Assembly: GCF_014646655.1 (NCBI RefSeq) | Contig: NZ_BMNR01000002.1 | Location: 275,942-339,941, forward strand | Reading direction: 5' to 3' | Source: Yeosuana aromativorans | GTDB taxonomy: Bacteria > Bacteroidota > Bacteroidia > Flavobacteriales > Flavobacteriaceae | DNA: 64,000 bases | Part shown: one piece after another, positions 40,947 to 61,060 of the stretch | Layout of the letters: each line of letters begins with the position of its first letter | Numbering within the stretch: position 1 is the first letter of the stretch | The notes under the pieces: model-generated | Told to the model about the DNA's origin: nothing | The model's database searches: none | Seen by the model: only the letters and a program-made list of their open reading frames with translations | Program-made: the position numbers and the translations under genes

Positions 40947-42185
40947 ATGATTTCAAAAGACCACATTATAAAACGATTTGTTAGTTATGTAACGGTAGAT
41001 ACACAATCTGATCCAAACTCAAAAAGTACCCCAAGTACCAAAAAACAATGGGATTTAGCCAACAAGCTTGCTGATGAACTCAAAACTATTGGTATGCAAG
41101 ACGTTTCTATTGATGAAAACGCATACATCATGGCTACTTTACCAAGCAATGTGGATCATAAGGTGCCAACCATTGGGTTTATAGCACATTTTGACACGTC
41201 GCCAGATTTTACGGCAACCAATGTAAAACCGCAAATTATTGAGTATTATGATGGCAAGGATATTGTTCTGAATGCCGAACAAGACATTGTTTTATCACCT
41301 GATTATTTTGAAGATTTACACCTCTACAAAGGGCAAACCCTCATCACTACTGACGGAACCACCCTTTTAGGTGCTGATGACAAAGCAGGTATCTGTGAAA
41401 TCGTTTCAGCTATGGAATATTTAATCCTGCATCCAGAAATTAAACACGGAACCATCCGTGTTGGCTTTACGCCCGATGAGGAAATTGGCCGCGGTGCCCA
41501 TAAGTTTGACGTTAAAAAGTTTGGGGCAGACTGGGCCTATACCATGGATGGTAGCCAGATAGGTGAATTGGAATATGAAAATTTTAATGCGGCAGGTGTC
41601 GTTGTTAAGGTAAAAGGTAAAATTGTTCATCCAGGATATGCCAAAGGCAAAATGATTAACTCCATGTACATTGCCCAAGAATTCATCAATTCATTGCCAC
41701 GTATGGAAACCCCCGAGCACACTGAAGGGTATGAAGGCTTTTTCCATTTATGTTCCATAAAAGGTGAAGTGGATGAAACTCAACTTGAATATATTATTCG
41801 GGACCACGATCGCGGGCATTTTGAAGCCAGAAAAGAAGTTATGAAAAAATTGACCGAAGAGCTGAATGCTCAATATGACAGAGAAGTGATTACAACCGAA
41901 ATAAAGGACCAATACTACAACATGAAAGAAAAGGTAGAACCCGTGATGCATATTGTTGATATTGCCGAAGAGGCCATGAAACAGCTCCACATAAAACCCT
42001 TGATAAAAGCCATTCGTGGCGGAACAGATGGTTCCCAACTCAGTTATATGGGCTTGCCTTGTCCCAATATTTTTGCAGGTGGCCATAACTTTCATGGGCG
42101 TTATGAGTATGTGCCAGTTGAAAGTATGATTAAAGCTACCGAGGTGATTTGTAAGATTGCAGAATTGACGGCTAAAAAAGCCTAA
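40947..42185 (+). CDS. pepT: Peptidase T (tripeptide aminopeptidase)
   Basis: A cytosolic M20 di-zinc aminopeptidase that releases N-terminal residues from tripeptides. The 412 residues match the family length. Zinc-site motifs are [12 protein letters not shown] (H81, D83), [15 protein letters not shown] with the bridging Asp, [15 protein letters not shown] with the catalytic Glu pair, and the C-terminal [17 protein letters not shown] with a ligand His. The dimerisation lid contains [20 protein letters not shown]. It stands alone; the downstream region holds an AT-rich, unusual small gene. Confidence 0.95.
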
Positions 42186-42281
42186 CTTGAATTTATAAAA
42201 TAAATCAGCTACCTTAGTTTACCTGTACTGAACTTGTAACATCTGATATTAAACATTAAAAAACGATTTCATATCATAATA

Positions 42282-42773
42282 GTTGCCTACAACTATGAAA
42301 AACACCTTTCTAATAATATTTATTTTCGGATTTTTATGTTGTTATGCTCAGAAAAAATCTGAACTGATTATTGGAACATGGAAATATGAAAAAGGAATTG
42401 ACTTAAGAACCCTTGAGGAGAAAATGTCCGACGAGAATAAAGAACCTCTAATTATTGAATCCGACGAAAAAAGCGATACGTTTCTGACTTTTAACAAAGA
42501 GTATATCTATTATAATAAAAAAGAATTCGGACAGTGGAAAATCATAAAAGATTCTTTATTAGTTTATCGAAAAATTTCTAAAGACAAAGAACATCTTGAC
42601 AAAAAAATAAGAGATGAATATTTAAAAGATGAATTTCTTGTTCTCAAAAAAGACGGAATTTATCTATCCAAACCATATTATTTAAAAATAAAAAAGCTAG
42701 TGAAAGAAACTTTAGAATTTGGAAACGAAAAAAGGTACTCAATATACAAACGATTTAAATAATTGTAGGCAAC
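42282..42773. repeat. 11-bp perfect inverted repeat bracketing a single small ORF
   Basis: GTTGCCTACAA at 42282-42292 and its exact reverse complement TTGTAGGCAAC at 42763-42773 flank one ORF. The left arm ends 2 bp before the ATG and the right arm begins on the base after the stop codon. Confidence 0.75.
42295..42762 (+). CDS. Small exported lipocalin-like protein of unknown function
   Basis: About 155 residues with a signal peptide (LIIFIFGFLCCYAQ). The mature part begins with a lipocalin-like opening, SELIIGTWKYEKG, followed by alternating polar/hydrophobic strands (TFLTFNKEYIYYNKKEFGQW, then KIIKDSLLVYRKI). It is rich in Lys and Glu, and the DNA appears more AT-rich than the flanking core genes. 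The ATG at 42295 is preferred over an in-frame TTG at 42283, which lies within the left repeat arm. The gene is precisely bracketed by an 11-bp inverted repeat, suggesting it arrived as a discrete unit. Confidence 0.65.
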   Translation: MKNTFLIIFIFGFLCCYAQKKSELIIGTWKYEKGIDLRTLEEKMSDENKEPLIIESDEKSDTFLTFNKEYIYYNKKEFGQWKIIKDSLLVYRKISKDKEHLDKKIRDEYLKDEFLVLKKDGIYLSKPYYLKIKKLVKETLEFGNEKRYSIYKRFK

Positions 42774-42916
42774 AAAATACTGTGGTAAAAACCAAGTAAA
42801 ACCATATTAATTTTTCACTAAAGTGCTTCTATGGGAATCATCATAAATTAGTCCTGATTTTTCTTCGGAAAACCTAGTAGATTTTAATACATAACGTTAA
42901 ACTAAACCTCAAAAAA

Positions 42917-43510
42917 ATGCCAAAAATAAACTCTGTAGACGACTATATTGAATCGCATCATCATTTTAGTGACGGGCTCAATCTGCTACGTTCCATTATT
43001 GAAAAAACGGAGTTGGTTGAGACCATTAAATGGAACTCGCCAGTTTATACCATTGATGGCAAAAACGTGGTTGGCATGGGTGCCTTTAAGCATCATTTTG
43101 GTATTTGGTTTTTTAACGGCGTGTTTTTAAAAGACGAGAAAAACCTGTTGGTAACCGCTCAAGAAAAAACAAAAGGGCTTCGCCAAATGCGGTTTGAATC
43201 TGTTGATGACATAAATACAAATGCGGTTCTGGCTTATATAAAAGAAGCCATCCAAAATCAAAAGCTAGGAAAGGAAATCAAACCAGAAAAAACCAAAACC
43301 ATAGTTATTCCTGAAGCGTTAAAACAGGAGTTTAAAAATAATGAGGCGCTGTATTCCTGTTTTAAATCACTCCCTCCCTATAAGCAAAAGGACTATTGTG
43401 AATATATTGACACGGCCAAACGTGAGGCAACCGTTACATCGCGCTTAGAAAAAATTGTGCCCATGATTCTGGCTGGAATTGGATTGAATGACAAATACAA
43501 AAACTGCTAA
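42917..43510 (+). CDS. YdeI/OmpD-associated family protein with DUF1801-like N-terminus
   Basis: A 197-residue cytosolic protein of two parts. Residues about 10-110 are DUF1801-like (LLRSIIEKTELVETIKWNSPVYTIDGKNVVGMGAFKHHFGIWF, the W-x-x-P-x-Y motif). Residues about 125-190 match the YdeI/OmpD-associated C-terminal helical module (IPEALKQEFKNNEALYSCFKSL, PYKQKDYCEYIDTAKREATVTSRLEK). YdeI-type proteins have been linked to stress and antimicrobial-peptide resistance, but the biochemical role is unclear. A strong hairpin terminator follows. Confidence 0.85.
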   Translation: MPKINSVDDYIESHHHFSDGLNLLRSIIEKTELVETIKWNSPVYTIDGKNVVGMGAFKHHFGIWFFNGVFLKDEKNLLVTAQEKTKGLRQMRFESVDDINTNAVLAYIKEAIQNQKLGKEIKPEKTKTIVIPEALKQEFKNNEALYSCFKSLPPYKQKDYCEYIDTAKREATVTSRLEKIVPMILAGIGLNDKYKNC

Positions 43511-47370: not shown

Positions 47371-47531
47371 TCCTCCAATTAATGATTATTCATATTATTT
47401 CTGATTTCATTTTAAAAATCGACGAAAACAAACAGAATATAAAAGAATATTAATTATTTGTTGGTTGGTAACGGTTTTTTTTAGATTTTTGATAAACATA
47501 AATGATAACTCAAATTAATTTTAATACAACT

Positions 47532-47915
47532 ATGAATACAAATGACATGATGGAGAAAGAGGATATTTTTTCTAAAGTATTAAGAGCCGGAAGACGTACA
47601 TATTTCTTTGACGTAAGATCAACAAAAGCTGAAGATTATTACCTGACAATCACTGAAAGCAAAAAGTTTACTAATGACGATGGTTCTTTTCACTATAAAA
47701 AGCATAAAATATACATTTATAAAGAAGATTTTGAGGAGTTTAAGGATATTTTAGCTGAAATGACCGACTATATCATCAAAGAAAAAGGTGATGAAGTAAT
47801 CAGTGAGCGTCACCAAAAAGATTTTAAAAAAGAATACGAAACGGACACAAATGTTGAGGAAGAAGTCGCAAAATCTCCTGAAAGTTTCACCGATATCGAT
47901 TTTGATGATATTTAA
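47532..47915 (+). CDS. PUR-alpha-like single-stranded nucleic-acid-binding protein (DUF3276)
   Basis: About 127 residues. The PUR repeat is recognisable: EDIFSKVLRAGRRTYFFDVR, then ADDYYLTITES-type KAEDYYLTITESKKF, then FHYKKHKIYIYKEDFEEFKDIL, then an acidic tail. Bacteroidota PUR proteins bind single-stranded DNA and RNA. The ATG at 47532 is preferred to one at 47502, since homologues start close to the MEKEDIFSK segment; a further ATG at 47547 is also possible. It is the last gene before a strong bidirectional terminator. Confidence 0.9.
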   Translation: MNTNDMMEKEDIFSKVLRAGRRTYFFDVRSTKAEDYYLTITESKKFTNDDGSFHYKKHKIYIYKEDFEEFKDILAEMTDYIIKEKGDEVISERHQKDFKKEYETDTNVEEEVAKSPESFTDIDFDDI

Positions 47916-59701: not shown

Positions 59702-61060
59702 GGTTTTTATAAGAATGTTGATGTCCATAAAAAAACCTCGGTGCTTGATATAGTACAAATCATACTGCAACTTCAATAAACTATCATCAATTGATGATCC
59801 GTAGCGTGTTTTAACTTGAGCCCACCCGGTTAATCCTGGTTTAATAATATGCCGTGTTTCATAAAAAGGTAATATTTTTGATAATTCCTTGACAAAAACA
59901 GGACGTTCTGGTCTAGGACCAATTAAGCTCATCTCACCTTTTAAAATATTGATGAATTGAGGAATTTCATCCAATCTGGTATGTCTTAAAAACCGCCCAA
60001 AAGAGGTGATTCTAATATCATTTTTTTTAGCCCATACGGCACCATTGGTTTCGGCATTTTTTATCATGGTTCTGTACTTGATCATTTTAAATAGAGCACC
60101 ATTTTTTCCAACCCGTTCTTGTATATAAAAAAGAGGCCCTCGGTTTGCCATAAGATTACCTATTAAGATAAATGGCAGTAATAACAATCCTATCAAAATA
60201 CCAATAAGAGAAATCACAATATCAAAAATACGGTGAAAAAACAAATACATTTTGTTGTGGTTGCTTCTACTAAATGGAAAGTATTTGTAAAAATCCCTAC
60301 CAACAAATTGTACGGGAATCCGTTGTGTCATATCTTCATATACTTGCGTGTATTCCTTTATTGGAAATCCAGATTCCAATAAGGTGATTAAATCATTGTA
60401 AATTTCTGAGGTAATGCTTTCAGAATTATAACTGGCCACAACAATTTCTGAGATGCCTTTTTCCTTAATAATTGCATGAATATCTTGAGGTCTGTATTGC
60501 TCAACACCTGAAAATTCAACAGACTGATGTTGATCGCCCTCACAATTTATAAACCCAACAATTTTATAATTAGGGTCAGAATCCTTAAACGCATGAACAA
60601 TGGATGCTATATTTGTGGTTTCCCCAACCAAGAGCACTTGTTTGTAAAACCGGGGCGACGCTATGAACGTTATGTAGGACCAACGCCATATAAAGATGGC
60701 CAACAGAATGGCAAAATAAAAAAATAGGATTTGCAATCGGTTATCAGGCAGAACTGGGGTGTAGAACGGTGTTAAAAAATAAAATAAAGCCGTTACTGAA
60801 ACTGTAAGTACTATACTGGGAATAATCTTATCTAACTTACTGGATTTCTGCAGGTCATATAATTCAAAAATGGTCCCAAAGATTGTCAAGTAAACAACCA
60901 ATACAAAAACCCATGTCCAATTTTCCTTATTGATAGTAAAATAATCAAAAGCAAAAATCATACTCACCAAGTACAACAAAGCAAGTGTAAACGTAATATC
61001 AAAAATACGAAGCAAGACTTTACGCTCAGAAATATTGAAGTGAATACTGTTATTAGACAT
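59669..61060 (-). CDS. Polyprenyl glycosylphosphotransferase starting exopolysaccharide synthesis (WcaJ-type)
   Basis: A 463-residue inner-membrane enzyme that transfers a sugar-1-phosphate to undecaprenyl phosphate. The N-terminal half has about four transmembrane helices and a CoA-binding-like Rossmann region (VLLVGETTNIASIVHAF). The C-terminal bacterial sugar transferase domain contains the juxtamembrane helix IGLLLLPFILIGNLMA, FKMIKYRTM, RHTRLDEIPQFINILKGEMSLIGPRPERP and KPGLTGWAQVKTRYGSS. The sugar donor is not determinable. It is the last gene, in transcription order, of the polysaccharide locus that extends beyond the right edge. Confidence 0.93.
   Translation of the reverse strand: MSNNSIHFNISERKVLLRIFDITFTLALLYLVSMIFAFDYFTINKENWTWVFVLVVYLTIFGTIFELYDLQKSSKLDKIIPSIVLTVSVTALFYFLTPFYTPVLPDNRLQILFFYFAILLAIFIWRWSYITFIASPRFYKQVLLVGETTNIASIVHAFKDSDPNYKIVGFINCEGDQHQSVEFSGVEQYRPQDIHAIIKEKGISEIVVASYNSESITSEIYNDLITLLESGFPIKEYTQVYEDMTQRIPVQFVGRDFYKYFPFSRSNHNKMYLFFHRIFDIVISLIGILIGLLLLPFILIGNLMANRGPLFYIQERVGKNGALFKMIKYRTMIKNAETNGAVWAKKNDIRITSFGRFLRHTRLDEIPQFINILKGEMSLIGPRPERPVFVKELSKILPFYETRHIIKPGLTGWAQVKTRYGSSIDDSLLKLQYDLYYIKHRGFFMDINILIKTLTTMFYFRGQ

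Follow-up and report, generated by a model that had tools for sequence, protein, structure and literature searches.

A probable solitary gene cassette with private inverted-repeat arms in Yeosuana aromativorans and its integron-like relatives in Flavobacteriaceae

One gene between two complementary arms

The DNA considered here is a 64,000-nt stretch of the Yeosuana aromativorans genome, hereafter the window. Within it, a pepT-like M20 peptidase gene (40947-42185, + strand, recognised by its Pfam M20 domains) and a DUF1801/OmdA-family gene (42917-43510, + strand, assigned by Pfam) are the left and right chromosomal neighbours of a short insert. Reading of the sequence places an 11-nt arm, GTTGCCTACAA, at the start of this candidate cassette (42282-42292, + strand) and a second, TTGTAGGCAAC, at its end (42763-42773, - strand); each arm is the exact reverse complement of the other. 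Between them lies one open reading frame (ORF; 42295-42762, + strand) encoding 155 amino acids with a signal-like N-terminal stretch, whose homologues in two other genomes, G200 and G075, are array cassettes. The fit is close: 2 nt separate the left arm from the ATG at 42295, and the right arm adjoins the stop codon TAA (42760-42762).

An 11-bp inverted repeat tightly bracketing a single ORF had been described in the initial annotation, and both the repeat and its coordinates prove exact. The ORF is also more AT-rich than the neighbouring genes, as had been stated, with a GC content of 0.263 against 0.401 and 0.380 for the neighbours and 0.355 for the window. The description of the product as lipocalin-like found no confirmation: the ORF matches no Pfam family above cut-off, so the label stays a guess, and the structure model, with a mean pLDDT of 43.7, was too poor and was dropped as a basis for fold comparison. 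The arms had further been said to fall outside the recognised integron attC pattern, and they do: the left arm reads GTTGCCT, which does not fit the classical core consensus GTTRRRY / RYYYAAC as given in PMC7370490. The arms have the GTT/AAC complementarity of a cassette 5' end with its own 3' end.

Taken alone, the length of the arms is a mild oddity. When the 5' flank of one window ORF was paired with the 3' flank of another, 7 of 4160 pairs matched over at least 11 nt, which corresponds to about 0.1 expected per 65 ORFs. Beyond the two window arms the exact 11-mer has no further copy in the 3.76-Mb genome, and a search of that genome for the same repeat pair around other small ORFs, a check proposed at the outset, returned none; the arms are cassette-specific. 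Both the mispaired matches and the single occurrence would suit a repeat that arose by chance, or a weak mRNA stem or terminator, around an ordinary native gene. The search for the same 11-mer rests on a wrong expectation, since each cassette has a private arm sequence, as described below. Elsewhere in the window, an ORF at 47502-47915 is also flanked by a 10-nt inverted repeat, CGGTTTTTTT, which looks like a terminator-type run rather than a cassette arm.

Homologues and the same locus in relatives

The ORF is present in 8 of 299 family genomes, its own included. Four homologues were checked for arms (G200, G075, G242, and G162). The G200 homologue (40% identity) has arms GTTACCTACA/TGTAGGTAAC and is a member of a run of similarly built genes; the G075 homologue, an array cassette, has arms GTTGCCAATA/TATTGGCAAC, which are self-complementary and unlike those of the window. 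The letters thus differ in both arms jointly, a pattern that a need for pairing between the arms would produce. On reading, no clear arms were seen at the homologues of G242 and G162, the latter being the closest (75%).

OmdA-family genes were located in 52 of the 149 genomes screened, Y. aromativorans counted among the 52, and 31 of these loci were examined. Thirteen of the 31 have no pepT in the stretch compared and were excluded from the gap count. In the relatives, pepT adjoins the OmdA-family gene at 17 of 30 loci (18 with the window). The gap between the two genes measures 0-77 nt in nine loci (18 nt in the same-genus genome G300), 217 nt in one, and about 515-655 nt, filled with other sequence, in six; the gap is longest in G070 (1104 nt), followed by the window (731 nt). 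The window ORF is missing from all of the relatives' pepT-OmdA loci (17 adjacent pairs among 30 loci).

Two relatives hold other genes at this place. In the G070 gap, a different gene comes first, then an intact attC (91.5 bits), then GTTAAACGAAAT, and then the OmdA gene. In G006, a third gene and an attC (73.9 bits) directly precede the OmdA gene, with pepT beyond the stretch compared. From these contents on the OmdA side, three different cassettes stand at one place in three genera.

A 3' attC of the window cassette would be expected at 42771-42898 (+ strand), 128 nt from AAC to GTT, a position given by its length and its GTTAAAC end. GTTAAACTAAAC lies 128 nt after the AAC of the right arm, at the place matching GTTAAACGAAAT of G070, and attC lengths are 122-128 nt. 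G070 has the same GTTAAAC, there placed behind an intact attC. No in-register match to the attC model was found at 42771-42898; the stretch gave an out-of-register match of 19.3 bits only. The 3' attC of the window cassette may have decayed or may never have been present; alternatively, it may not have come along with the gene.

Cassette arrays and their hairpin sites

Contig 7 of G200 carries eleven AAC...GTT spacer sites of about 125 nt, and the genes between them each have a private inverted repeat. The aligned spacers form an asymmetric stem, in which changes on both sides occur in 8 of 15 named pairs. Covariation in the hairpin is 0.416 vs 0.130 in shuffles and is abolished when the pairing partner is slid; the structure was drawn from the same sequences on which it was tested, which favours it. 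A covariance model of the hairpin was run on 13 selected genomes and detected sites in all 13. Among 150 candidates scored per genome, it found at least 46 sites in the genome of Y. aromativorans and at least 85 in the same-genus G133.

Over 22 sources the model gave 104 matches, 93 of which entered a test of the arms, 11 weak, cut, or chance ones having been dropped. Of the 70 cassettes between neighbouring sites, 66 have arms that begin with GTT and are complementary over at least 7 nt, compared with 6.2% for swapped arms. In the genome of Y. aromativorans itself, 24 of 26 array cassettes have private arms. The arrays also have sites that, from their sequence, would fold as an attC does. Several contigs start or stop in or near attC-like repeats (G000:C5, C14, C15, and C17; G200:C6 and C7; G133:C3 and C13), so arrays are probably split and undercounted in draft genomes.

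This layout bears on the possibility of a chance repeat or weak stem around a native gene. The layout recurs at homologues in two other genera, where the arms differ in sequence yet are again self-complementary; it is common to nearly all array cassettes, and the gene is missing from the relatives' loci; we regard a chance origin as very improbable. Two features set the arms apart from chance: they fit the start and stop codons exactly, and their arrangement recurs, in other letters, at homologues and array cassettes.

Cassette bodies are shared between genera. One body is 94.5% identical over 506/506 nt between G200 and the genome of Y. aromativorans, another 96.1% over 568/570 nt between G200 and G299, and a third 87% between Y. 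aromativorans and G006. The hairpins behind three shared bodies have a 3'-side identity of 0.64, 0.70, and 0.63 vs a background of 0.62, and a fourth pair is similar. Conversely, attC sites that are 89-100% identical stand behind unrelated bodies, also across genera (L016, L079-L082, L097, L098). In one pair within the genome of Y. aromativorans, body and attC are both shared. In this small sample, the attC does not travel with the gene body, which suggests separate exchange of bodies and hairpins, or conversion of the hairpins.

The recombinase beside the arrays

A tyrosine recombinase stands beside the arrays, and in several genomes, that of Y. aromativorans among them, its 3' end lies against the first cassette. 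It does not score as an integron integrase: the recombinase of Y. aromativorans reaches 188 bits against TIGR02249 (integron-integrase), below the cut-off of 265, and 230 bits against NF040815 (Xer/XerA-type), whose cut-off is 220. About 42 residues, the IntI-specific domain, are absent in the alignment to IntI4 2a3v, and the spacing from KDR to LRH is 68-69 aa in array recombinases vs 110 in IntI1 and the Kovacikia IntI. According to PMC9668308, this additional domain is defining for IntI. In a tree that took in 58 of 60 rows (L211 and L172 omitted), the three IntI sequences form a separate clade and the array recombinase lies away from the genome's own Xer proteins, with long branches present.

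The TIGR02249 search gave a match above cut-off only on a contig of G301; the best matches elsewhere are tyrosine recombinases that fit both ends of the profile and not its middle. That contig belongs to an assembly of the same genus and carries a classical IntI split into two pieces (G301:C17:9522-10461, L043), with ordinary-looking cassettes that differ from the arrays described here; it may be a contaminant and was set aside.

An alignment of nine array recombinases matches 82 of 120 family genomes, taken one per genus, at E<=1e-80. Thirty recombinase loci were surveyed for attC sites, which lie 3' on the same strand in 18 and on the other side in one (G075); in five of the rest the contig breaks off within 206 nt on the 3' side, and six have full flanks without a match. 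In 17 of the 18 loci with a 3' attC, the first cassette is joined beside the recombinase, its arm lying 33-135 nt after the recombinase stop and mostly behind a palindrome. The palindrome with its recurring arm may be read from sequence as an attI-like site. Among 80 loci of named organisms, 50 attC matches were obtained, 48 of them on the 3' side of the recombinase and on its strand, in 15 loci that include Winogradskyella ursingii, Seonamhaeicola aphaedonensis, Algibacter onchidii, Zunongwangia mangrovi, and Algoriphagus ornithinivorans. No attC was found 3' of the recombinase in the other 65 of the 80, many of which are distant Xer-like proteins. At a further locus in G162 (L089; G162:C55:182921-183742), a tyrosine recombinase has two attC matches within the same 19 kb and is followed by what is presumably the start of an IS91-like transposase.

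A promoter-hairpin module upstream of the cassette

The 5' side of the window cassette has a structure of its own. A promoter-like part (42187-42237, + strand), recognised by its dispersed copies, comprises a TTG-containing start from 42187, TACCTTAG at 42210-42217, and TTTACCTGTACTGAACTTG at 42218-42236; it may act as a promoter. It is followed by a short attC/attI-like hairpin (42238-42284, + strand; AAC..GTT) whose GTT also opens the left arm. The hairpin scores 22.4 bits with model R1 (E 0.01 in 64 kb) and 20.9 bits with model R2. As a chance benchmark, the best attC-model score in the window, 22.8 bits at 60240-60324, exceeds that of the short hairpin; the match lies inside an apparent coding region, which we take to be a sugar-transferase gene, and was set aside as chance. 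Despite its weak score, the short hairpin ends on the exact cassette base.

A stretch of about 100 nt is common to the 5' sides of the window and G006 cassettes: the promoter-like part, TTTACCTGTRCTGAACTTG, and then the short hairpin up to the first base of the cassette. At the OmdA locus, the module is thus present in Y. aromativorans and G006, and G070 has a remnant-like start of it. The module motif has seven copies in the genome of Y. aromativorans at up to two mismatches, with zero in the control; one of the seven, in coding sequence, looks like chance, and six are convincing. A sequence model finds further copies, most of them in G070, G006, and G200. A palindrome inside the module, CTGAACTTGTTTCAG, is seen in the window (42218-42236) and in L254, L256, L258, L259, and L260, and is missing from the L299 copy; it resembles a common repetitive element of flavobacteria.

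Twenty-two modules were examined for what follows them. The automatic count placed an exact arm pair behind 9 of the 22, and reversed sequence gave 3 such matches; inspection upheld only the window, L275, L295, and L299 from that count, which had misplaced the promoter box at L277 and L288. Reading added L263, whose arms have one mismatch, and L264, which has an attC and imperfect arms. Six modules were then read as preceding a solitary cassette, and five of these six cassettes have attC-like sequence behind them; the remaining modules precede genes without clear arms. The junction with the module in G070 and G006 is often A|TT, vs G|TT in arrays, as though the target had supplied the first base and the cassette those that follow (few cases).

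Two further explanations turn on this module. The insert might be a transposon, or an element of the MITE kind, that ends in 11-bp inverted repeats and carries the gene as its passenger, which would agree with an insert bounded by inverted repeats that is not in the relatives and with an upstream promoter module that is repeated in the genome; yet the arms have no second location in the genome and differ from cassette to cassette, and neither a transposase nor a target duplication was seen in the sequence around the insert. Such an element has very little probability in our judgement. The initial annotation had offered a mobile one-gene cassette or a miniature element with a passenger: the former is supported by the private-arm arrays in the genome and family and by the absence of the insert in relatives, and the latter is not supported.

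The second explanation is a solitary cassette that inserted off target at an arbitrary genomic site of the attG type, with the upstream module an unrelated repeat. Cassette insertion at attG is a published concept (in a title cited by PMC11023631), and copies of the module also stand before genes without arms. Against it, a single locus holds different cassettes in Y. aromativorans, G006, and G070; the module, or its remnant-like start, is found there in all three; and five other modules precede arm-bounded or attC-bearing genes. We consider off-target insertion rather unlikely.

Proposed explanation

We conclude that the ORF, together with its arms, is probably a lone gene cassette belonging to a system in Flavobacteriaceae that resembles integrons. 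Each body there starts with GTT and six or seven further bases and ends with the reverse complement of this start, ...AAC. By analogy with integrons, the arms would match because the ends of a circular body meet and must form one recombination-site stem. In arrays, such bodies are strung between attC-like hairpins of about 125 nt, starting at the attI-like palindrome past the 3' end of the recombinase. A dedicated tyrosine recombinase without the IntI-specific domain would act on these sites, and the hairpin sites would presumably be folded as single strands. The array recombinase, acting in trans, could have brought the window cassette to a docking module of promoter and hairpin that lies between pepT and the OmdA-family gene. 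The cassette's hairpin site on the 3' side would since have decayed or been left behind, and the cassette may be expressed from the upstream module.

A broader reading is tentative, and we rate it as possible, somewhat short of an even prospect: that Bacteroidota harbour a separate kind of integron, which combines a non-IntI recombinase, bodies with private 9-10-nt inverted repeats that move apart from their hairpin spacers, and dispersed promoter docks, free of recombinase, each with one exchangeable cassette. The window gene would be a docked unit consisting of a body only. It is not filed as a classical integron cassette, because the recombinase is not an IntI and an attC is not in evidence for the window copy.

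From sequence comparison, a gene-collecting system, comparable to the integrons in which antibiotic-resistance genes accumulate but with an unusual recombinase, appears to be common in Flavobacteriaceae. Given how many of the family's genomes carry the recombinase, IntI-based searches may be overlooking a large gene-exchange system with scarcely any annotation. IntegronFinder 2.0 lists, besides Chlorobi and Ignavibacteriae, a single complete integron in Bacteroidetes proper, in Salinibacter ruber (PMC9024848). A description of such arrays in Flavobacteriaceae was not found in the literature covered, which included PMC8618304, PMC8352920, PMC8138268, and PMC2426708, with subscription papers and preprints outside its coverage. 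The system makes several questions testable: the need for the IntI domain, how bodies gain an attC, and which cargo is traded. The private inverted repeat is a simple means of finding cassettes, solitary ones included.

Comparison with known systems

Three known systems invite comparison. The recombinase of Y. aromativorans is alike to the Xer/XerA type in scoring above that family's cut-off (NF040815); the array recombinase differs from it in an extra N-terminal part of about 100 aa, in its place at cassette arrays, and in its separate position in the tree, where branches are long. Solitary cassettes at attG sites are alike in that one cassette stands at a genomic site without an integrase. 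The site described here differs in looking like a reused promoter-hairpin module, and the window cassette in having no recognisable 3' attC.

Integrons, sedentary chromosomal ones included, with their IntI, attI, and attC, share several general features with the present system: single-gene cassettes whose start and end are complementary at GTT and AAC, folded spacer sites in the arrays, an attachment site and a tyrosine recombinase adjoining the array, and cassettes common to several genomes. There are also differences. The recombinase here is without the IntI additional domain, and in 18 of the 19 attC-bearing loci its gene is read in the direction of the array; the window arm departs from GTTRRRY, and arms in the present system are mostly 9-10 nt long; and the bodies that genomes share are followed by hairpin sites that they do not share.
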